Source: Actinomycetes bacterium
GTDB taxonomy: Bacteria > Actinomycetota > Acidimicrobiia > Acidimicrobiales > Bog-793
Reading direction: 5' to 3'
Length of the DNA: 44,866 nt
NCBI GenBank assembly: GCA_021809805.1
Contig: JAJZKA010000011.1
Location: 1 to 44,866, forward strand
The translations under genes and the position numbers were made by a program. Positions 28,325 to 41,414 of this stretch are shown here, piece after piece. Positions within the stretch are counted from its first letter, which is position 1. Every line of letters begins with the position of its first letter. Below the pieces are notes generated by a model. That model did no database searches and was not told where the DNA came from. It saw only the letters and a program-made list of their open reading frames with translations.

Positions 28325-28624
28325 GTGAGTACGTCATCGCCCCCAAAGGCCCTGCGCCTCGATCCAAGTGACAACGTGGCCGTCGTCATCTCGGCGCTCG
28401 GCGCCGGTGATGAGGTGGCACTCGAAGGAGTCCGGGTCGTCGCCCGCGAGGCGATCGGCTTTGGGCACAAGATCGCCCTCGCCGCGATCCCTGTGGGGGC
28501 GCCGGTGCGCAAGTACGGGGAGGTGATCGGGATCGCCACGGCCGATATCACCGCTGGCGCCCACGTCCATGTGCACAACGTCGTGAGCGCTCGGCTGCCC
28601 GGTGCTCAGGCGGCCGCGCGATGA
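28325..28624 (+). CDS. UxaA family SAF-domain small subunit
   Basis: DNVAVVISALGAGDEVALEG...IGFGHKIALAAIPVGAPVRKYGEVIGIATADITAGAHVHVHNV, typical altronate/galactarate dehydratase N-domain. Confidence 0.9.
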   Translation: MSTSSPPKALRLDPSDNVAVVISALGAGDEVALEGVRVVAREAIGFGHKIALAAIPVGAPVRKYGEVIGIATADITAGAHVHVHNVVSARLPGAQAAAR

Positions 28625-29460
28625 GTGCCTTGGACCTGATGGGCTATCGGCGCGCGCACGGCGGGGCCGGCGCGCGCAATCACGTGCTCGTGCTGCCCTC
28701 GGTCGTCTGCTCGACGCGTGTCGCCGAGCAAGTGGCGGGGGACGAGGCGGTGTCGGTCACTCACCAGCACGGATGTGGGCAGGTCGGCGACGACGTGAAG
28801 AACTCCTCTCGCCTATTCGTCGGCATGGCGACGAACCCGAATGTGGCGGGTGTCGTGGTGGTCGGTCTTGGCTGCGAGACGATCGGCGGCCCTGGCCTTG
28901 CCGAGGAGATCGCCCGCGCCCACCAGCACGTCGCGTTCGTCGGCATCCAGGCCTGTGGGGGCAGCGCCGCCACGGTCGCCGCGGGCACCGCGGAGCGCGA
29001 GGCGCTCGTCGAAGCGGCCCGGCGCCTCGAGCGCCAACCGGTCGCCGCCTCGGCGTTGCGCGTCGGGCTGGATGACCCAAGCGCTCCCTTTGCCACTTCG
29101 CTCGCCGCGGCGCTTGAGGAGGCGGGGGCGTCGCTCGTGCTGCCGGGCTCTTCACAGCGCGGCGAGCTCGCCCACGCCGAGCTTGCCGCAGCCGGGGTGA
29201 CCGTGATCGTGGCGTGGTGCGGGCCGGGCGTGGGGCCGAGATCGTTCCCGGTGGTGCCCGTCCTCTCGGTGAGCGGCGACCCTGTGCTCGCGGCCGCACT
29301 CGGCGAGGATTTCGATGACATGGTCGAGCCCGGCGATACCGCAGCGGCCGGCGCTCGTCTCGCCGCCGCCGCCGCCGCCTGCTTCTCGGGCAAGGCGTGT
29401 GCCGCCGAGCGCCGGGGTGCCGCGGAATTCACCCTCCCACGTCTTGCGAGGTCGATGTGA
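28621..29460 (+). CDS. UxaA-type large-subunit paralogue A (retains HQHGCG and GLGCET motifs)
   Basis: MGYRRAHGGAGARNHVLVLPSVVCS, VTHQHGCGQVGDD, VVGLGCETIGG; 4-bp overlap with previous CDS. Confidence 0.85.
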   Translation: MSALDLMGYRRAHGGAGARNHVLVLPSVVCSTRVAEQVAGDEAVSVTHQHGCGQVGDDVKNSSRLFVGMATNPNVAGVVVVGLGCETIGGPGLAEEIARAHQHVAFVGIQACGGSAATVAAGTAEREALVEAARRLERQPVAASALRVGLDDPSAPFATSLAAALEEAGASLVLPGSSQRGELAHAELAAAGVTVIVAWCGPGVGPRSFPVVPVLSVSGDPVLAAALGEDFDDMVEPGDTAAAGARLAAAAAACFSGKACAAERRGAAEFTLPRLARSM

Positions 29461-30599
29461 GCGACACCTTTTCCGGTTACGTCCGGCCCGATGGCCGCGT
29501 CGGGGTACGCGACCACGTCCTCGTGCTCGCGATGCGCTCGGTCGCCAACGTGGCGGCGCGGCGCGCGGCGGCGGGTCTCGAGGGCGTCGTGGCCGTCCCC
29601 CAGGAGCTCGAGCGGCCCGACCAGGTCGACGGCGAGCGGGTGCGACGGACCCTGGCCGGCTTCGCCACGAACCCGAACGTGGGGGGCCTGGTCGTGGTGG
29701 GTCTGGATGCCAGTGACGGCTGGCTCGTCGAGCACGCTGCCGAGTCGGGCATACCTTGCGCCCTCGTCACTTTGGCTGAGCACCGTGGCACGAACGGGGC
29801 CGCTGAGGCCGCCGCCGCCGCCGCCTCTCGGCTGCGCGCCGCCGCGACGACGCAGCGACGAAGCGTTTCGGTGAGCGAGCTGATCGTGGGGCTCGAATGC
29901 GGTGGCTCGGACGCGTTGTCCGGCATCACCGCGAACCCGGCGCTCGGGGTGGCGAGCGATCGCCTGGTCGCCGGCGGCGGCGGCTCGATCCTTGCTGAGA
30001 TCCCCGAGCTGATCGGCGCCGAGGAGTCGCTGGCGGCCCGGGCGATCTCGAGCGAGGTCGCCGCGGCCGTGCGAGGGGTGATCGATGACTTCGAGCGCTC
30101 GATCCGCGACCTCGGGGTCGACGTGCGCGGCGCCCAACCCTCCCCGGGCAACCAGGCCGGCGGCCTCACCACCATCGAGGAGAAGGCGCTGGGCGCGGCG
30201 AAGAAGGGGGGCAAAGGCCCGATCAGCGGGGTCCTCGACTACGCCGAGCGCTGCCCGCGAGGCGGGCTCTACATCATGGACACCCCAGGCCAAGACATTG
30301 AGCAGATGGTCGGCATGGTGGCCGGCGGGGCGCAGATCGTGGCCTTCACCACCGGCCGGGGCACGCCGACCGGCTCGCCGATCGCACCGTGCCTGAAGAT
30401 CGCCACCAACAGCGACGTTGCCGCCCGCCTGGTGGGCGACATCGACCTCGATGCGGGCGTGATCCTCGCGGGGGTCGAGAGCGTGGCGAGCATGGGCGAG
30501 GTGATCTACGCCCGCTTGCTCGCCGTGGCCTCGGGCGAGCTCACGGCGGCCGAGCGCAACGGGGAGCGGCAGTTCGCCCTGAGCGTCGTCGGGACCTAG
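29457..30599 (+). CDS. UxaA-type large-subunit paralogue B (retains CGGSDALSGITANPALG motif)
   Basis: GYVRPDGRVGVRDHVLVLAM, VGLECGGSDALSGITANPALGVASDRLV, YIMDTPGQDIEQMVGMVAGGAQIVAFTTGRGTPTGSPIAPCLKI; GTG start at 29457. Confidence 0.88.
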   Translation: MSDTFSGYVRPDGRVGVRDHVLVLAMRSVANVAARRAAAGLEGVVAVPQELERPDQVDGERVRRTLAGFATNPNVGGLVVVGLDASDGWLVEHAAESGIPCALVTLAEHRGTNGAAEAAAAAASRLRAAATTQRRSVSVSELIVGLECGGSDALSGITANPALGVASDRLVAGGGGSILAEIPELIGAEESLAARAISSEVAAAVRGVIDDFERSIRDLGVDVRGAQPSPGNQAGGLTTIEEKALGAAKKGGKGPISGVLDYAERCPRGGLYIMDTPGQDIEQMVGMVAGGAQIVAFTTGRGTPTGSPIAPCLKIATNSDVAARLVGDIDLDAGVILAGVESVASMGEVIYARLLAVASGELTAAERNGERQFALSVVGT

Positions 30600-31120: not shown

Positions 31121-31274
31121 AGCCGGCCGCCACTTGGGCCCACGAACTCGATCGGCGCGGACATCGTCCCCGTCGGGTGCTCGAGCCGGCACGCTGAGCC
31201 GGCCGCCACTTGGGCCCACGAACTCGATCGGCGCGGACATCGTCCCCGTCGGGTGCTCGAGCCGGCACGCTGAG
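31121..31274. repeat. two-copy 76-bp perfect tandem repeat
   Basis: Unit agccggccgccacttgggcccacgaactcgatcggcgcggacatcgtccccgtcgggtgctcgagccggcacgctg at 31121-31196 and 31197-31272, continuing 2 bp. Confidence 0.95.
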
Positions 31275-31292
31275 ACCGATACCTTCGCGGTC

Positions 31293-32996
31293 GTGAAAAT
31301 GGTGGAGGTGCCGGTACTGCCGCGGCCCCGGCGGTTCGATCTCGACGACCGGAGCGTGCCGGCCGTTCCGCCACGGGTGCGCCACGACCCGCGGCTGGGG
31401 CGCGAGGCCTTTCGGGTGTCGATCTCCGAGGGCGCCGTCGAGATCGTGGCGGGGGGCCAAGCGGGCGAGTTCTACGCGAACGACACCCTCGAGCAGCTCG
31501 CCGGAGCGTTCTCGGGCCGGCTCCCCACCGGCACGATCGACGATGAGCCGGCGCTCGGCCAGCGGGGGGTGATGCTCGACGTCTCGCGGTCGCGGGTCCC
31601 GACGATGGCGACGCTGTACGCGATGGTGGACCGGCTCGCGCGCTGGCGGATCAACCATCTCGAGCTCTATCTCGAGCACACCTTCGCGTACGTGGGTCAC
31701 GAGACCGTCTGGGAGGGCAGTGACCCCTTCAGCGAGACCGAGATCGGTGCATTGCGCGTCTATTGCGCCGCCCGGCACATCACCCTCGTCGCCAACCAGA
31801 ACACCCTCGGCCATTTCGAGCGCTGGCTCGCCCATCCCCGCTACCGCCCGCTCGCCGCGCGCCCCGAGGGCTTCCTCGGTCCTGACGGGGAGTGGCGCGC
31901 GCCGAGCACCCTTGATCCGAACAATCCCGATGCCCGCGCGCTCGTGGCTTCGCTCATCGAGCAGCTGGTGTCGGTGCTTCCCTCCGAGGAGGTGAACATC
32001 GGCCTGGATGAGCCCTGGGAGCTGATCTCGGGGCGCGAGCAAGAGTGGCTGGCGTGGCTTGAGTGGTTGGCGGCGCTGCCGGTGCTCAAGGACAAGAGGC
32101 TCTTGTGCTGGGGCGATGTCCCGGCTCGCCATCCCGAGCTGATCGGAGCTCTGCCCGAGCAGGTCGTCGTGTGCGAGTGGGGCTATGAGGCGGACCATCC
32201 CTTCACCGAGCGCGCGGCGGCGCTCGCCGGGGCTGATCGCCGCTTTTGGTGTTGCCCGGGCACCTCGAGCTGGAACAGCGTGGCCGGGCGGCTGGACAAC
32301 GCGCTCGGCAATTGCGATGCCGCGGCACGCGCCGCACTCGAGTTCGGCGGGGAGGGGTTCCTCGTGACCGACTGGGGGGACGGCGCGTGCCAGCAGTACC
32401 TACCCTTCATCGAGGTACCGCTCGCGCTCGGCGCGGCGGCCGCCTGGAGCGGCGCGTCACCGACGGGCGACCTCGGCCCGTTGATCGGCCGGCGGGTGTT
32501 CGCGGACCCAAGCGGCGCCATGGGTGCGGCCGTGGTGATCCTCGCCAACGCCTACCAGGTGATGGGCGTTCAGATGAAGAATGCCTCGATCCTCACGCGG
32601 CTGTTGTTTGCGCCGGCCGACCCGGTCGCCCCGCCGCGCTACGCGGGCGTGTCCGCGCAAGGATTCGAGGCCGCACTCGAGGCGATCGAGGCAGCCCGCG
32701 CCGAGCTCGCCAGCCAACGAAGCGCCCGCGAGGACGCCACGTTGATGGTCGAGGAGATCGAGGCGGCGGCCGAGGTCCTGGCGCTGTGTGCGCACGACGG
32801 GTTGGCGCGCCTTTCGGGTGACGGCACACTGGCCGGCATGGCGGGGCGCGACCGGGTTCGTCTCGCGGCGCAGGCCACGCGCGCGGCGACGCGTCACCAA
32901 GGCCTCTGGCTGGCGAGGAACCGTCCCGGCGGACTCGAGGAGAGCCTGGGCCCGCTCCGTCGCTACGCCGCGACCCTCGAGGCGACGATGCGCTGA
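31293..32996 (+). CDS. GH20-like beta-N-acetylhexosaminidase
   Basis: RGVMLDVSRSRVPTMATLYAMVDRLARWRINHLELYLEHTFAY, catalytic-type VNIGLDEPWEL, LLCWGDVPARHPEL; GTG 31293 or ATG 31299. Confidence 0.78.
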   Translation: MKMVEVPVLPRPRRFDLDDRSVPAVPPRVRHDPRLGREAFRVSISEGAVEIVAGGQAGEFYANDTLEQLAGAFSGRLPTGTIDDEPALGQRGVMLDVSRSRVPTMATLYAMVDRLARWRINHLELYLEHTFAYVGHETVWEGSDPFSETEIGALRVYCAARHITLVANQNTLGHFERWLAHPRYRPLAARPEGFLGPDGEWRAPSTLDPNNPDARALVASLIEQLVSVLPSEEVNIGLDEPWELISGREQEWLAWLEWLAALPVLKDKRLLCWGDVPARHPELIGALPEQVVVCEWGYEADHPFTERAAALAGADRRFWCCPGTSSWNSVAGRLDNALGNCDAAARAALEFGGEGFLVTDWGDGACQQYLPFIEVPLALGAAAAWSGASPTGDLGPLIGRRVFADPSGAMGAAVVILANAYQVMGVQMKNASILTRLLFAPADPVAPPRYAGVSAQGFEAALEAIEAARAELASQRSAREDATLMVEEIEAAAEVLALCAHDGLARLSGDGTLAGMAGRDRVRLAAQATRAATRHQGLWLARNRPGGLEESLGPLRRYAATLEATMR

Positions 32997-33739: not shown

Positions 33740-34666
33740 CTACCAGGGCTGAGCCGACCCGAGCCGGCGCCGGGCCCCGTCTTTTCGGGCGCTGTCAGGA
33801 AGGGTCCAGCTGCGCCGCCACGGCGCTGCCTGCGGACCGCGCAATGGTGGCGTTGTCCCATCGCTGGCGCGCCGCCGGGCGCTCCACCAGTCGCTCTCGG
33901 CCTCGTCGGCGAGCAGCGCGACGGCCGCCTCGATGCGTGCGCCGAATCGCCGGGCGTCCTCCTCGCGGCGCTCAGGGCCCGCCGGTTCGAGTCGCAGCGC
34001 GTCGCCGAAGCGCACCTCAACCCTGCCCGGCCGCAGCGTCGAGCTCCCTTTGGCAAGGATCGGGCGGGTGCCGCGCAGGTGGAAGGGAACGACGGGCACG
34101 CCGCAGCGCTTGGCGAGGTAGGCGGCCCAGCCACGGAACTCCTGGCCCCAGCCGTCGGGGGTGCGGCCGCCCTCGGGGAAGATCACGAGGCTCCAGTCCT
34201 CATCGAGCAACCCGGCGATCAGCTCGAGGCTGCGACGCTCGACCTTGGTGCGTTCGATGGGGATGGTCCCGAGCGCGAAGGACCACAGCGCCGCCTTCCA
34301 ATGGCGGTCGAAGAAATAGTCCGACGCGGCGGCCACCACGCTCTTGTGGCGAAAGCGCGCCGGCAGGCACGACAACAGGATCGAGGTGTCGAGGTGGCTC
34401 GCGTGGTTGCCGGCGAAGATCACCGGCCGCTCGAGCGGCGCGAGGTGCTCGAGGCCGCTCACCTCGGGAGTCGCGAGGAGGTGCACGAGGGGGCGCGTGA
34501 GGTTGTCGAGCATGATCGCCCGTCCGACGCGCGCGGCGGGCGTGCGGGCCCAGGTCGTGTCGTAGCTCGTGCCGAGGCGGGCTTTGGGAATGGGGCGCTC
34601 GAGCGTGCCCGGCCAGGTCGGGGGCGACAAGACCGCGGCGAGCGGGCGCGGCAGCGCCGGCTTCAC
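33740..34666 (-). CDS. 1-acyl-sn-glycerol-3-phosphate acyltransferase (PlsC-like)
   Basis: NHASHLD (HX4D), GTIPIERTKVERRSLE, IFPEGGRTPDG. Confidence 0.9.
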   Translation of the reverse strand: MKPALPRPLAAVLSPPTWPGTLERPIPKARLGTSYDTTWARTPAARVGRAIMLDNLTRPLVHLLATPEVSGLEHLAPLERPVIFAGNHASHLDTSILLSCLPARFRHKSVVAAASDYFFDRHWKAALWSFALGTIPIERTKVERRSLELIAGLLDEDWSLVIFPEGGRTPDGWGQEFRGWAAYLAKRCGVPVVPFHLRGTRPILAKGSSTLRPGRVEVRFGDALRLEPAGPERREEDARRFGARIEAAVALLADEAESDWWSARRRASDGTTPPLRGPQAAPWRRSWTLPDSARKDGARRRLGSAQPW

Positions 34667-36249
34667 GACACCTCGGCGATCAGTAGCGGTGGCGTGTGGA
34701 GGTGGGTGATCGTCGGATCCCGGCCGACCACGTCCTCGGCCATCTCGAGCGCATCGGCGAGCGTGCTGGCCGGTTTGAAGCCGAGGCGGCGCACGGCCGC
34801 GCGGTCACCGCCGACGACGATGACGGCACCGAGATGGTCCAGGGCGTGCGCGCACCAATACCACATGTAGAAGGGGTGCACCCCGTGGTACGCGTGGGAC
34901 GTCCGGTACAGGTGGATGTACCACGGGTCGCGCGCGTAGCTCTCCTCGAATCGCTTTTCGACCTCCAAGGGGTCGGTCGTCTCGGCGAGCACCTGCTCGA
35001 AGAAGTCGATGTAGCTCGGGTGGTGCACGGGATGGAAGGCCCAGGGGGTCGGGTGCGACAAGATCACGACGCCGCCCTGGCGGACGAGCGGCTTGCCCTT
35101 GTAGAGGTTGAACAGGTACCCAAGCCCGAGGCAGGCCACGAGGATCGGGTTCATGATCGAGTTGACGTTGTAGGGCGAGATAAAGGGCAGACCCATCGTC
35201 AACACGTCGGTCTGGCCTTGGACCGGCACGAGCTGCTGGGCGAAGAGGTGGTCAAGGGTCTGCTCGTGCACCGCCTCGACCTCGCCGGCTTGCACCGAGG
35301 TCAGCCGGTACGGGGCGCGCACGGAGTGGAAGATCTGACGGGCGAGCGGCGCCGGGGTCCGATCGAGGGCGGCGCGCACGGTGTGGAAGGCGGCGCGGTC
35401 CTTTAGCCCCCACTCCCACTCGCGGTGATTGAGAAACCCGAACTGGTCGGGGAAGGTCGCCGTGTTGAGGGTCGTCTCAATCTGGAAGATCTTCAGTGAC
35501 TGGGCGATCAGGCGGCCCATTCGCCAGTTCGAGGTGTGCAGCTCGGAGTGGTGCCGATCCATGAACGAGCGGCTGTGCTGCATCGTCTTGACGTTGTGGT
35601 GATGGCGGATGCTGTCGTAGCTCGCCAGGCCGGTGGCGACCGACTTGTGCCCACCATCCATCGCGACGAGGTTGATGTTCACGTAGACGAGCAGGTCGCT
35701 CTCGGCAGCGCGGCGGCTGATGGCGACGAGCTCGCCCTCGTCAGTCTCGCCCAAGGTGACCATGGCGTCGGGATCCTCGGCGTCGTGCTGCCACAACAGC
35801 CCGTTCGGTGCGAAGGCGTCGAAGACCCGCCTGCCGAGCGCGTGGCGCAGCTCGTCGTCGGTCATCCGCCGGTGCAGCGCGAGCGCTGCGATGAGCACGA
35901 CGTCATCGACACCGGCAGCGGCCGCCTGGTCGAGGACCGCCTCGATCACCCGAGCGCGGACGTCGGGCGCTTCCATCTGGGGCAGCGGCAAGGAGACGTC
36001 GTCGAACGCGATCGTCAGCTTCATGCCCGGATGCAGCAGCGCAGAGAGCGGAGCCGAATCCCCGAGCGGGTGCTCGAGCGCATGGGCAATCGCGGCGTCG
36101 GGGTCGGCAAGGGGCACAAGCGGCTCGGGCGGATACACGACGCGGCTGCCGATGGGAAGGCGTTCGAGGCGGAAGTTCTCGCCGTGCCAGAACAGAGTCG
36201 GCGGCGTCGAGCGGTCGACCTCGAGGACGAATCCCGGCCTCGGACTCAC
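34663..36249 (-). CDS. LarA/DUF2088 (lactate racemase N-domain)-like protein
   Basis: HPGMKLTIAFDDVSLPLPQM, LIAALALHRRMTDDELRHALG, GGHKSVATGLASYDSIRHHHN; GTG start overlaps previous stop. Confidence 0.75.
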   Translation of the reverse strand: MSPRPGFVLEVDRSTPPTLFWHGENFRLERLPIGSRVVYPPEPLVPLADPDAAIAHALEHPLGDSAPLSALLHPGMKLTIAFDDVSLPLPQMEAPDVRARVIEAVLDQAAAAGVDDVVLIAALALHRRMTDDELRHALGRRVFDAFAPNGLLWQHDAEDPDAMVTLGETDEGELVAISRRAAESDLLVYVNINLVAMDGGHKSVATGLASYDSIRHHHNVKTMQHSRSFMDRHHSELHTSNWRMGRLIAQSLKIFQIETTLNTATFPDQFGFLNHREWEWGLKDRAAFHTVRAALDRTPAPLARQIFHSVRAPYRLTSVQAGEVEAVHEQTLDHLFAQQLVPVQGQTDVLTMGLPFISPYNVNSIMNPILVACLGLGYLFNLYKGKPLVRQGGVVILSHPTPWAFHPVHHPSYIDFFEQVLAETTDPLEVEKRFEESYARDPWYIHLYRTSHAYHGVHPFYMWYWCAHALDHLGAVIVVGGDRAAVRRLGFKPASTLADALEMAEDVVGRDPTITHLHTPPLLIAEVS

Positions 36250-37559
36250 GACGCTCCCTTCGTTGGGCTGTGGTCGGTGACCGGCGGCATGCCAGCGGCC
36301 GAGGCGGGCTCGGTGCTGTGCCATGAGCCGGCTGGGCGCCGCAGGTCGAAGACGATCTTGATCGCGCCCCGGCGCCCGGCCTGGCCGGCGTGCCGAAGTG
36401 CCTCTTCGTAGTGCTCGAGAGCGTAGCTGGCCGAGACGAGGCGCCCGAGATCGGCGGAGCGCACGAGCTCGAAGGCGAGGTCGAACGTCGGCCGGGCTCG
36501 GACTTCGGCGACTTCGCCGGGGCGTGCGGGCTCGCTGACGTGCTCGGTGCCGTAGGTGTAGGCGCCGAGCAGGGTGATCTCGCGCTGCCACAGGGGCGCA
36601 AGGTCGACCTTGACCGTCGAGGGCATGCCGGCGAGCACGACGCGTCCACCGGGTCGGACGACCGCAAGGGCCTCGGTGATCGACTCGCTCGTGCCGACGC
36701 AGTCCAAGACGACGTCTGCGCCGCCGGCGAGGCGTTCGAGCTCCCCGGCGTCGCGCTCGAAAGCGAGCGTCGCGGTCGCCCTCCGCACCGCTCGGGTGAG
36801 CTCGGTGGAGGAGACGACGCCATCCGCACCGAGCGAGCGGGCGAGGCTGCGCTGGACCGGATGGCGGGCGACGGCGATCAAGGTGCGCGGCAGGCCGTAG
36901 CGGCGCAGCGCCGCCAAGGTGGTGAGGCCGATCGTCCCCGCACCGAGCACGACCGCGACCTCGCCGGGGACGACGTCGGCCGCGAGCGCCACGTGGATCC
37001 CGCACGCGGTCGGTTCGACGATCACCGCCTCCTCGTCACTCAGGTCGTCGGGGACGGCGTGCAGCTGGGTGTCGTGGGCGATGAGCTCTTCGGCGAATGC
37101 CCCACCCGTGTCATGGCAAAAGCCAGTCTGGAGCCCCGCGGAAATCTCCCCGTAGGCGATGCGCTCGCACCGCCCCTTTTGGCCGCGCCGACACGCCGAA
37201 CAGGGCGGGTCGATGCCCCGCGCAGCGCAGCCGAGGACGGGCTCGAGCACGGCGCGCCGGCCTGCCAGCGGGCCGTCGAGGACGTCGGCGACGACCTCGT
37301 GGCCGAGCACGAAGGGAAAGCTGACGATCGGCTCGAAATAGCGCGAGCTGGCGCCGTCGACGGTGTGAAGGTCCGATCCGCAGATCCCCGCCAGGCGGGG
37401 CCGGATGCGGTGCCAGGCGGACGAGGGGAGTCCGGGTGCCTCGGCCTCGAGCAGGCGGAGGGGACCGAGCCCGTGGGCGGCCCCCGTGCCAGCGAGCGCG
37501 GCGCCGAGGCGCGCGGCGGCGAAGCGATGCAGCTGGCGCTCGACGACGAGGGCCTTCAT
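36246..37559 (-). CDS. zinc-dependent alcohol dehydrogenase (MDR family)
   Basis: GICGSDLH, GHEVVADV, CSACRRGQKGRCE structural zinc motif, VVLGAGTIGLTTLAALRRYG. Confidence 0.92.
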   Translation of the reverse strand: MKALVVERQLHRFAAARLGAALAGTGAAHGLGPLRLLEAEAPGLPSSAWHRIRPRLAGICGSDLHTVDGASSRYFEPIVSFPFVLGHEVVADVLDGPLAGRRAVLEPVLGCAARGIDPPCSACRRGQKGRCERIAYGEISAGLQTGFCHDTGGAFAEELIAHDTQLHAVPDDLSDEEAVIVEPTACGIHVALAADVVPGEVAVVLGAGTIGLTTLAALRRYGLPRTLIAVARHPVQRSLARSLGADGVVSSTELTRAVRRATATLAFERDAGELERLAGGADVVLDCVGTSESITEALAVVRPGGRVVLAGMPSTVKVDLAPLWQREITLLGAYTYGTEHVSEPARPGEVAEVRARPTFDLAFELVRSADLGRLVSASYALEHYEEALRHAGQAGRRGAIKIVFDLRRPAGSWHSTEPASAAGMPPVTDHSPTKGAS

Positions 37560-39952
37560 CGATGCTCCTGTGGGCTGGTGAGCTTCGGGGCGAGCGTCGT
37601 CCGTGGGCCGAGGCGGCGGGTGGCGACGGCGAGGAGATTGCGGGGACCCCCAGCGGTGCGCGCCCAGCGCTCGACCGGCCAGCCACGCCGCCGTGCGATG
37701 GCGGCCAGCTTTGGCTCGGGGTTCACCGCCACCGGCATGCCGGCGGCCTCGAGCATCGGCAAATCGCTCGTCGAGTCCGCGTAGGCCACGGTGCTCGACA
37801 GGCCGAGCCCGTGCCTCGCCGCCCACTGCTCCATCAGCGTCGCTCGCGCCTCGCCGGTGGGCGGGGTGGAGACCATCTCGCCGGTGAAGCGGCCGTCGTG
37901 CTCGCCAAGACGGGCGCAGACGATCTCATCGAACAGCGGGGTGAGCGGCGCAACGACGAAGTCGAGCGCACCGGTGATCAACAGCGTGTGGTGGCCGAGC
38001 GCCCGGTGCGCCCGCACTCGTTGGATCGCCCCGGGGAACGACCGCGTGAGGAGCAGGTCGCTGAACAGCTCCCAGGCGTCCTCTCGAACCCGTTCGACCG
38101 GTGCGTCCTCATAGCGGCGATAAAAGGATCGGAGGAAGTCGCCGCGGTCGCGCCGGTCGACGGCGAGCAGGCGCGGGCCCTCGAGCATCAAGCTCAAGGT
38201 GAGCTGGGCGCGCCGCAGCGGTTCGAGGTGCCGGGTGGCGAGCCAGGCGTAGGACTCCACCACATTGGAGTTCACGATCGTCTGCTCCAGGTCGAAGACC
38301 GCGACGTGGGGCTCCTTGGACAGGATCGCCCGTCGGGCGCGCTCTTCTCGTGTACCGCTCACGCGCTTTCCCGGGCTCGTGCGCACGCGGGCGTGGCGGA
38401 CGACGGAGGGAAGGTGGATCTCGGTGACGTAGCGCTCCCAGTCGACCACCCCAGGGTCGAAGCAGAACTCTGCCTGGTCGGCGGGATCGAGGCTTGAGAA
38501 GAACGCGAGGCTTCGGTCGATCGAAAAGCGCGCCTCGGTCTCGGTGTAGGAGCCATACAGCTCGACGTAGCCGAGCGCCCGCTCAGCGAGCGCCTTGCGT
38601 TCTTCTATCTCGACAATCTGCTCGGCTCGCTCGCCGCGCACGGGCAGGGATGAGGCGAGGCGCTCGATGAGCCCGAGGACCTTGGCGGCACGGCGCAGCT
38701 CGCCCTGGACCTTCCCGCGCCCGGGGAACTGCCAAGTCGCGACGGCGATTGGCTCACCGCGCTGGTCATAGAGCGGTCGCTCGTTGAACCACTCCTCGCA
38801 GAGCCGCACCAGCTTGCCGTAGCGCAGCGGGTTGCGGACGCTCGAGGCGACCTGGAAGATTGGCGGCGGTGCGTCGGGAGTGCCCGTTGAGGGGTGTGCG
38901 GCGACGGCGATCAGCGCGGCGGTGACGAGGTCGACCGGGATGACATCGACCACGCCCTCGGGGACGCCGGGGAACTGGCGCAGCAGCCCGCGGGCATAGG
39001 AGATGATCACCGGCTCGGCCATGCGAAAGCCGCGGATCCAGCCGGGCCGGGGCTCGGCAAGGGCGGACTCGACGATCGAAGGCCGCACGATGGTGGTCGG
39101 AAGCGGCCCGCGGTTCTGCGACAGCGCGACCTCTCCGAGGGACTTCGTATACGCGTAGGCATCGGGCCAGCCGAGGGCTTGGGCACGGGCACGCCCGAGT
39201 TCCACCATGCGGTCGCTCACCCAGTCCGTGCGGAGCCGTTCGGTGCGTTCGGCGAGCAGGCTGCGGCCGGCGGCCCCGAGCTCTTGGCGGGCCGCCTTGG
39301 CGAAAGCGGCGAGGCGATCGGGCTCACGGCTTTGGCCGTCGGCCTCGCTGCGCGCCCGCCGAGCAGCGGCGACCTCCCCGCGCCAGTCCGGAAGGCTGAA
39401 GAAGCGGTCGTCGGCGACCGGCTGCTCGGGCGCGTCGCCGTGACGCCCGCTTTGGACGTAGGCCGTCGAGACCGCGACGAGATGGGGAAGCGGTGCGCCG
39501 GGCGGGCGGTGGCGCGCCGCGAGCTCCAGCAGAGTCGTCGCGACGCGGCTCGGGCCGAGCAGGTTCACCTCGACCGCGCCGTCGAGCGGCGCGTCGAAGC
39601 TGACCGTTGCGGCCGAGTGCACGACGACGTCACAGCTCGCGAGAATCGCGCCATCGGCCTCACTCAACCCGAGCCCGTCGGTGCCGACGTCGCCGGCGAT
39701 CGTGACGAGGCGTCGGGCGATGGTCCCCTCGAACGCGTCGCCGAGCTCGTTGCGCAGCCGGTCGAAGCAGTCATTGCGGATGATCTCGCGCGCCGTGCGC
39801 TCGGCGGCCCCCGTCCGCCGGCCCGGTCGGACAAGGACGACGATCTCGCAGTCCGGCACGGCGCGCACCAGGCGCTCGACGAGGGCCGTGCCGAGGAAAC
39901 CTGTTGCCCCGGTCACCGCGATGCGGCGACCGGCAAGGAGCGAGGAGATCAC
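37556..39952 (-). CDS. fatty acyl reductase (NAD_binding_4) fused to HAD-IB phosphatase-like domain
   Basis: VTGATGFLGTALVERLVR, VHSAATVSFDAPL, YAYTKSLGE; C-terminal HAD motifs VFDLEQTIV, LLITGALDF, YADSTSDLPML. Confidence 0.88.
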   Translation of the reverse strand: MISSLLAGRRIAVTGATGFLGTALVERLVRAVPDCEIVVLVRPGRRTGAAERTAREIIRNDCFDRLRNELGDAFEGTIARRLVTIAGDVGTDGLGLSEADGAILASCDVVVHSAATVSFDAPLDGAVEVNLLGPSRVATTLLELAARHRPPGAPLPHLVAVSTAYVQSGRHGDAPEQPVADDRFFSLPDWRGEVAAARRARSEADGQSREPDRLAAFAKAARQELGAAGRSLLAERTERLRTDWVSDRMVELGRARAQALGWPDAYAYTKSLGEVALSQNRGPLPTTIVRPSIVESALAEPRPGWIRGFRMAEPVIISYARGLLRQFPGVPEGVVDVIPVDLVTAALIAVAAHPSTGTPDAPPPIFQVASSVRNPLRYGKLVRLCEEWFNERPLYDQRGEPIAVATWQFPGRGKVQGELRRAAKVLGLIERLASSLPVRGERAEQIVEIEERKALAERALGYVELYGSYTETEARFSIDRSLAFFSSLDPADQAEFCFDPGVVDWERYVTEIHLPSVVRHARVRTSPGKRVSGTREERARRAILSKEPHVAVFDLEQTIVNSNVVESYAWLATRHLEPLRRAQLTLSLMLEGPRLLAVDRRDRGDFLRSFYRRYEDAPVERVREDAWELFSDLLLTRSFPGAIQRVRAHRALGHHTLLITGALDFVVAPLTPLFDEIVCARLGEHDGRFTGEMVSTPPTGEARATLMEQWAARHGLGLSSTVAYADSTSDLPMLEAAGMPVAVNPEPKLAAIARRRGWPVERWARTAGGPRNLLAVATRRLGPRTTLAPKLTSPQEHR

Positions 39953-40596
39953 CGCCGGCGCGAGGCAGCGGCGCGGGTGGCAGCACGCCGCGGGGGCGTA
40001 TAGCGCTTGGAAGCAGCTGGCACCTTCGTGGTCTGGTTGCCGCGGGACTTCGGGCCCGTGTCGACCGTGCCACTGAAACGTCCTGCCGCCTGGTCCTGGC
40101 GCTGCTTCCTCATGACCCGGAAGATCAACCAGCCGCCAAAGAACAGATAGAGGACGGCACCGTAAAGGAACCCGGTCGAGAGCATCTCCATGCCGATGAG
40201 GAATGAGGCAAAGCCAAGGAGCGCGCGACGGCGGAACACGACGCCGCCCACCAAGATGGCGCAGCCGACCAGGCCGGCGATCAGGTAGGTGGCGGCGTCG
40301 TGGCGGATCGTCGTGTTGGCAGAACCCCGAGCGACGAAATACACCGCGACCGCCAGCACCGCGGCGATGGCGCTGAGGATGGCCCCGAAGATGATCTCAC
40401 GGCGCTCGAGGCCGTTGACGATCTCCTTGGAGTTCGCCGGGAGCGGGGTTGGCTCTTTGGGCTCACGCGGTCCGGGCTTTTGGTGCCAGAGATCCCGGAC
40501 GATCTCGACCAGCGAGCGTGGCTTGAAATGGGTGGACTCCTCGGCCACGTCGGCCGGTTCGGGGGGCCTCTGGTCGCCGTACTCAGAGCGCGTCAC
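39949..40596 (-). CDS. small integral membrane protein of unknown function
   Basis: Hydrophobic segments IIFGAILSAIAAVLAVAVYFVA, AATYLIAGLVGCAILVGGVVF, LLGFASFLIGMEMLS, FLYGAVLYLFFGGWLIF; GTG start 40596; 4-bp overlap with downstream gene. Confidence 0.7.
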   Translation of the reverse strand: MTRSEYGDQRPPEPADVAEESTHFKPRSLVEIVRDLWHQKPGPREPKEPTPLPANSKEIVNGLERREIIFGAILSAIAAVLAVAVYFVARGSANTTIRHDAATYLIAGLVGCAILVGGVVFRRRALLGFASFLIGMEMLSTGFLYGAVLYLFFGGWLIFRVMRKQRQDQAAGRFSGTVDTGPKSRGNQTTKVPAASKRYTPPRRAATRAAASRRR

Positions 40597-40643: not shown

Positions 40644-41414
40644 TCAGGCGCAAAGCGCGGGCAGCAGCTCGCTGATCGAGCCGTCGAGTCGCGCTTGGGC
40701 GAGATGGTCGAGCTCGGTCGATCCCTTGGTGAGGATCACGATCGGGCGTCCGATCTCGTGCGCGAAGTGGACGAGGCCGGCGGCGGGGCGGACGCTGAGC
40801 GTCGTCCCCACGGCCATGAGCAGGTCGGCGGCGCGCACGGCCAGTGCGGCTCGGCGCAACAGGGTGGCGTCAAGCGGCTCGCCGAACAAGATGGTCGAGC
40901 CTTTGAGCAGGCCGCCGCAGGGGGCGCCGTCGACGATCGCCATGCAGTGCGGGTCGGCTTCCCCGGCGCGGACGCGTTCCACCACGAGCTCGGTGTCACC
41001 CTCCACCCCACAGCGCCAACAGCGCGTCCGCCGGATCGATCCGTGCAGCTCGACGACACGATCGCGGTGGTGGCCGGCGGCCAGGTGGAGGCCGTCGGTG
41101 TTCTGGGTGGCGAGGAGCTCGAGGCGTCCTGCGGCCTCGAGGCCCACAAGGGCGCGGTGACCCGCATTGGGGGTCGGGACGGGTCGCGAGGGATCGGCGA
41201 GCCGCCGCCACGCCGCGGCGCGCAGCTCGGGATCGTTGAGGTAGGCCGACAGCGTCGCCCGGCGCCCCGCGAGGGGGTCTCGAGCCCATAGACCGTCAGG
41301 ACCGCGGAAGTCGGGGATGCCCGAGTCCGTCGAGATGCCCGCACCGCTCAGCACGACGATGCGCTGGGCGTGCTCGAAGAGCCGATGGGCGCGTGAGAAA
41401 TCGTCGGCGACCAT
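40644..41414 (-). CDS. NAD-dependent protein deacylase, Sir2 family
   Basis: IVVLSGAGISTDSGIPDFRGPDGLW, LLATQNTDGLHLAAG, VVELHGSIRRTRCWRCG, ILFGEPLD, MAVGTTLSVRPAAGL. Confidence 0.95.
   Translation of the reverse strand: MVADDFSRAHRLFEHAQRIVVLSGAGISTDSGIPDFRGPDGLWARDPLAGRRATLSAYLNDPELRAAAWRRLADPSRPVPTPNAGHRALVGLEAAGRLELLATQNTDGLHLAAGHHRDRVVELHGSIRRTRCWRCGVEGDTELVVERVRAGEADPHCMAIVDGAPCGGLLKGSTILFGEPLDATLLRRAALAVRAADLLMAVGTTLSVRPAAGLVHFAHEIGRPIVILTKGSTELDHLAQARLDGSISELLPALCA

Follow-up and report, generated by a model that had tools for sequence, protein, structure and literature searches.

A conserved actinobacterial operon with a single-histidine LarA-like enzyme and a probable role in ether-lipid backbone synthesis

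In this report, we describe an operon on a 44,866-nucleotide stretch of actinobacterial DNA (hereafter, the window) that is probably dedicated to the synthesis of membrane-lipid backbones. Its predicted product, 1-O-alkyl-glycerol-phosphate, would be the initial intermediate on the way to mixed ether/ester phospholipids. The gene set occurs in a fixed order across deep-branching actinobacteria, and it joins a fused fatty acyl reductase (FAR) and HAD protein, a zinc-dependent dehydrogenase, an acyltransferase and an unusual relative of LarA, an enzyme that works with the nickel-pincer nucleotide (NPN) cofactor.

Layout and conservation of the operon

Five minus-strand genes run from position 40596 to position 33740 of the window (Table 1). 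An earlier note on this DNA held that neighboring genes overlap by 4 bp, as ATGA or GTGA, at every junction. Direct reading of the sequence bore this out for all four (GTGA at 39949-39952, ATGA at 37556-37559, GTGA at 36246-36249 and GTGA at 34663-34666), and the coordinates and domain names given at that time were upheld by the same reading and by domain searches. The first gene encodes a small membrane protein for which Pfam and NCBIfam domain searches returned no match. A promoter scan found nothing, such a scan being uninformative at this G+C content.

Table 1. Genes of the operon in the window, in the order of transcription
Product	Protein	Coordinates	Strand	Basis
Small membrane protein, optional (family-level) first gene	P0001	39949..40596	-	ORF and GTGA overlap
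FAR-HAD fusion	P0002	37556..39952	-	Fatty acyl reductase 1-545 and HAD-IB phosphatase-like domain 546-798
Zinc-dependent MDR dehydrogenase, polyol/ketose-reductase-like	P0003	36246..37559	-	ADH_N and ADH_zinc_N
LarA-like NPN enzyme, LarAH14/15/16 family, single catalytic His	P0004	34663..36249	-	Lar_N, NF052592
PlsC-family acyltransferase	P0005	33740..34666	-	PF01553, 1.3e-17

Several other features of the window deserve mention. A Sir2-family gene (40644-41414, minus strand) sits upstream of the operon at a distance of 47 bp and in the same orientation; of the 80 loci mapped, only that of the sister genome G023 has such a gene in this position. A 76-bp unit is repeated perfectly in tandem at 31121-31274, close to where a glycosyl-hydrolase-20-like gene (31200-32996 region) begins; this duplication could be recent or an assembly artefact. 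Two overlapping neighbor genes on the plus strand (28621-29460 and 29397-30599) belong to the altronate/galactarate dehydratase family, the former with only a weak match to the C-terminal domain.

With the LarA-like protein as the query, a search recovered matches from 30 of the 35 family genomes and from 162 of the 396 genomes in a phylum-wide sample; many genomes in the same order, and some in other classes, held close relatives. The stretches around 80 of these matches and 80 named loci were mapped with the window's proteins. Where all four of the FAR-HAD, zinc-dehydrogenase, LarA-like and acyltransferase genes were present, they stood in this order and on one strand at 121 of 122 loci. The named loci contained all four core genes in 71 cases and at least three in 80. 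Where the record says, nearly all of these carriers are Acidimicrobiia or unspecified Actinomycetes, and the cultivated Ferrithrix thermotolerans DSM 19514 (locus L218) is among them. The core set spans many family labels within a single phylum. Further, the 4-bp overlap recurs in homologous loci at the junctions between FAR-HAD and dehydrogenase (93/137), dehydrogenase and LarA (72/146), and LarA and PlsC (39/132). Because these overlaps recur, and because order and strand are so consistently retained, the operon arrangement exceeds chance. The neighborhood comparison that the earlier note had proposed thus reveals a widely conserved gene set, not one whose members are adjacent only in this genome.

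The membrane protein is a different matter. It was found in only 29 homologous loci, and there it rarely overlaps its neighbor; the core therefore comprises four genes rather than five, and we rejected this protein as a part of the pathway. The original description of a five-gene operon holds for the window, in which all of the junctions overlap, but not for the conserved unit. In three Rubrobacter-like operons (L130, L131 and L127), extra genes lie between the dehydrogenase and LarA genes, one of them MOSC-domain-like by eye.

Acyltransferases and the proposed lipid pathway

Phospholipid assembly requires both a first and a second acyltransferase. The window's genome (G000), its relative G030 and the closed genome G114 (2,158,157 bp), which we take to be that of Acidimicrobium ferrooxidans, each encode exactly two PF01553 proteins, and PlsY was not found in any of the three. 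In all three, the PF01553 protein outside the operon adjoins a cytidylate-kinase-like gene, and the neighborhood of cmk is the usual place of plsC. This cmk-linked PlsC is 34% identical to the operon acyltransferase over 157 residues. Given that only two PF01553 proteins exist, that one of them belongs to a cmk-plsC cluster and that PlsY is absent, the operon acyltransferase is the sole candidate for the first acylation in these genomes. Other carriers have more acyltransferases than these, so the argument rests on the three genomes named. The enzyme has the expected motifs NHxSHxD/HX4D (N87, H88, S90, H91 and D93) and EGxR (E165, G166 and R168), and H88xxxxD93 and EGxR are conserved at a level of at least 95% in about 130 sequences.

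A Rubrobacter-like clade (f26, presumably Rubrobacter itself) presents a second form of the operon. In this clade, which includes the closed genome G075 (3,225,748 bp; presumably Rubrobacter xylanophilus), the operon contains no PlsC, and PlsY is encoded just upstream of FAR-HAD where the region was mapped. The best or only PlsY, confirmed by TIGR00023, fell in the operon region in 7/7 genomes tested. PlsY is the textbook first-step acyltransferase. That two unrelated first-step acyltransferases occur in one operon points to a common role, which we take to be entry into glycerolipid synthesis.

The remaining enzymes are consistent with such a role. The FAR-HAD protein contains NAD_binding_4 (1.5e-54) and HAD (3e-29) domains, and a PDB search identified the fatty acyl-CoA reductase 7eoz as the nearest solved structure to its FAR part (2.5e-67). 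At least 95% conservation was observed for the cofactor motif GxxGFxG (G15, G18, F19 and G21) and for YxxxK (Y266 and K270) in 126 sequences, and likewise, in about 130 sequences, for D554, T558, D726 and D730 of the HAD domain. The same holds in about 130 zinc dehydrogenases for the catalytic-zinc residues (C60, H87 and E88) and the structural-zinc cysteines (C111, C120, C123 and C131); the sole PDB match to this enzyme below 1e-20 is the ketose reductase 1e3j. With the exception of the second catalytic histidine of the LarA-like protein, catalytic residues are kept in all of the operon enzymes, making their activity plausible from sequence.

A FAR yields a fatty alcohol or aldehyde, and alkyl-ether lipid synthesis classically begins when this is joined to the backbone. 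In the pathway that we propose, the operon acyltransferase (or PlsY) would acylate glycerol-phosphate or DHAP, FAR would provide the fatty alcohol or aldehyde, and the zinc dehydrogenase would reduce a keto (DHAP-level) intermediate. A hydride transfer without racemisation would fall to the single-histidine NPN enzyme, and the cmk-linked PlsC would then attach the second, ester-bound chain. The title of a report on five species of Rubrobacterales (Sinninghe Damste et al. 2023, Syst Appl Microbiol 46:126404, as given in PMC11150832) describes membranes dominated by mixed ether/ester lipids. The earlier note had envisaged an unusual-lipid pathway with an ether lipid as one option; this idea finds good support in the conserved neighborhood, the exchange of PlsY and PlsC, the lack of another first-step acyltransferase, and the reported ether/ester membranes of Rubrobacterales.

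An improbable alternative is that the operon builds long-chain 1,2-diol lipids, as Thermomicrobium does. In that case, FAR would reduce a 2-hydroxyacyl thioester, and the LarA-like enzyme would act on the 2-hydroxy group. A FAR and an enzyme of a 2-hydroxyacid family would be chemically suited to this task, GpsA is missing from several complete carriers, and Thermomicrobium roseum has an all-diol membrane and no plsB. However, a diol needs only one acylation, whereas the first-step acyltransferase of the operon (PlsY in f26) and the second PlsC represent two, and the lipids named in the Rubrobacterales title are of the ether/ester type.

The LarA-like enzyme

The LarA-like protein of the window scores 900.7 bits against NF052592, the model for LarAH14/15/16, which has a curated cut-off of 740 bits. 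Distant operon LarAs also exceed this value (860.9 for a Rubrobacter-like protein and 899.9 for that of L112), and LarAs from outside the operon fall below it (524, 456 and 311). In a phylogenetic tree, the operon LarAs group together in a single 69-tip clade (support 0.98) on a long stem, with one non-operon member, and LarAs below about 46% identity are without such an operon. Many carriers, L241, L244 and L245 among them, possess another LarA-like gene, which is distant in sequence (25-38% identity) and whose surroundings are unrelated. These second copies were checked for a FAR/PlsC context, as were distant LarAs from f30, f43 and others within the mapped stretches; neither group has such an operon.

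We compared active sites by aligning two sets of operon LarAs (A1 and A2) to 9q2u. Invariant in both sets are K202, H217/H218 and H126, the equivalents of the NPN-binding Lys184, the nickel-binding His200 and the catalytic His108. The position of the second catalytic histidine, His174, is occupied by Asn in the operon LarAs, in which N191 and N193 are invariant; the absence of this second histidine has been stated for LarAH groups 14/15 (PMC12611868). LarA-type enzymes carry a cationic Arg75/Lys76 associated with the NPN phosphate/substrate carboxylate, whereas the operon LarAs of A1 have Leu87 or another uncharged residue at the equivalent position. An AlphaFold model of the window's protein (pLDDT 89.8) has the single-histidine LarAs 9q3k/9q3j as its nearest structures. 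With these and with the LarAH14/15/16 family it shares the fold, the NPN-binding lysine, the nickel-binding histidine, the catalytic histidine and the Asn at the second-histidine site (PMC12611868). Its genomic context differs from that of 9q3k/9q3j, for which a carbohydrate context has been suggested.

These features bear on the kind of reaction to be expected. The earlier note had associated LarA with alpha-hydroxy-acid racemisation, a function that is not supported for the operon enzyme, given the missing second histidine and the inactivity, on the acids tried, of LarAH14 from Frankia, the only tested member of its family branch. We rejected a plain 2-hydroxyacid racemase because the second histidine and the cationic residue are both missing. 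Since the NPN lysine, the nickel histidine and the first catalytic histidine are kept and the second is gone, the operon LarA should, judging from its residues, be regarded as a user of the LarA cofactor and not be called a racemase. The NPN genes larC (186.8 bits) and larE (299.2 bits) are present in the window's genome. Within the class, larC occurs in 19/21 operon carriers vs 0/17 non-carriers (p=1e-8, from counts that ignore kinship); it was not found in 6 of 63 high-quality carriers.

Pfam and NCBIfam searches of the operon's five proteins detected no AGPS, Ger, PlsA or ACS/ACP domain. The absence of AGPS, Ger and ACS/ACP domains leaves the ether-forming step of the operon without a known catalyst. 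We offer, as a speculative and rather unlikely solution, that the LarAH14 enzyme is this missing catalyst, replacing AGPS by a hidden-redox reaction. In such a scheme, the NPN would take the C2-H hydride of 1-acyl-glycerol-phosphate (or of the DHAP form), the acyl ester would be exchanged for a fatty alcohol, and the hydride would be returned on the same face by means of the one histidine.

It is also improbable that the operon combines standard diester phospholipid synthesis with a side branch to wax esters or fatty alcohols, LarA acting on a small, non-lipid hydroxy acid. Each of the enzyme families has such uses elsewhere, and LarAs outside the operon clade occupy other contexts. The operon LarA, however, is translationally coupled in mid-operon and kept there phylum-wide, its clade is almost exclusively operon-borne, and the failure of the Frankia enzyme to act on the acids tested speaks against a small-acid substrate.

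GpsA distribution and known ether-lipid systems

GpsA (PF07479) has no match in 26/63 high-quality carriers vs about 23/236 non-carriers, in counts that ignore kinship. It was not found in the near-complete or closed genomes G000, G023, G114, G045, G075, G126, G323 and others, of which G114, G045 and G075 are closed. Such an absence is unusual for bacteria (PMC5059525). Quite improbably, the operon could replace GpsA, in which case the zinc dehydrogenase and LarA would form glycerol phosphate in a novel way and FAR would play an accessory part; however, many carriers keep GpsA, the counts cover PF07479 without glycerol kinase or GlpD, and the phylum-wide excess vanishes within the class (absent from 7/21 carriers vs 6/17 non-carriers), which led us to reject this as the main function. 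As a clue only, the absence of GpsA is compatible with an ether-lipid pathway in which DHAP is acylated first and then reduced by the zinc dehydrogenase.

Among the closest described systems is the elb operon of Myxococcus (ElbA-ElbE), which brings FAR1-like, HAD and acyltransferase functions together and includes ElbC, a protein of unknown function (PMC9131029). The earlier note's statement that no such pathway had been described was thus too strong. In Myxococcus xanthus (MIBiG BGC0000871), the likeness extends to a FAR1-like reductase, a HAD protein and an AGPAT-like acyltransferase associated with alkyl-ether lipids in an aerobe. Unlike elb, the window's operon has FAR fused to HAD and includes a zinc MDR dehydrogenase and a LarA-like enzyme. 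Further, ElbD is a multidomain protein with ACS and ACP domains, whereas the five proteins of the window's operon contain no AMP-binding or ACP domain. Therefore, by analogy, this operon may act like elb without being a member of that group.

In the eukaryotic FAR1-GNPAT-AGPS route, three steps would be matched by FAR, the acyltransferase and the keto-reductase, but the window's operon has no AGPS gene. Closer to home, five Rubrobacter genomes reportedly all harbor a putative 1-O-alkyl-glycerol-phosphate operon, which is said to resemble an operon of other aerobes. That operon most likely has the gene set described here in its PlsY form, in place of which the Acidimicrobiia have a PlsC-family enzyme after LarA. 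Our literature search found no direct account of a FAR-LarA operon or of Rubrobacter lipids. We conclude that the operon has probably been described in part in Rubrobacter. Three points seem to be new: the operon extends widely into Acidimicrobiia and other lineages, two enzymes replace each other at the first acylation, and the orphan LarAH14/15/16 group is assigned to a membrane-lipid pathway.

An orphan branch of the nickel-pincer enzymes thus gains a pathway, and the formation of alkyl-ether lipids in aerobic bacteria that have neither AGPS nor Ger in the pathway becomes a testable question. If LarAH14 does catalyze ether-bond formation, this would take the NPN cofactor beyond isomerases for the first time. 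Finally, ether lipids are predicted for the Acidimicrobiia, inhabitants of soils, bogs and acid mine waters. Their presence there would bear on the sources of the bacterial ether lipids that serve as environmental biomarkers.
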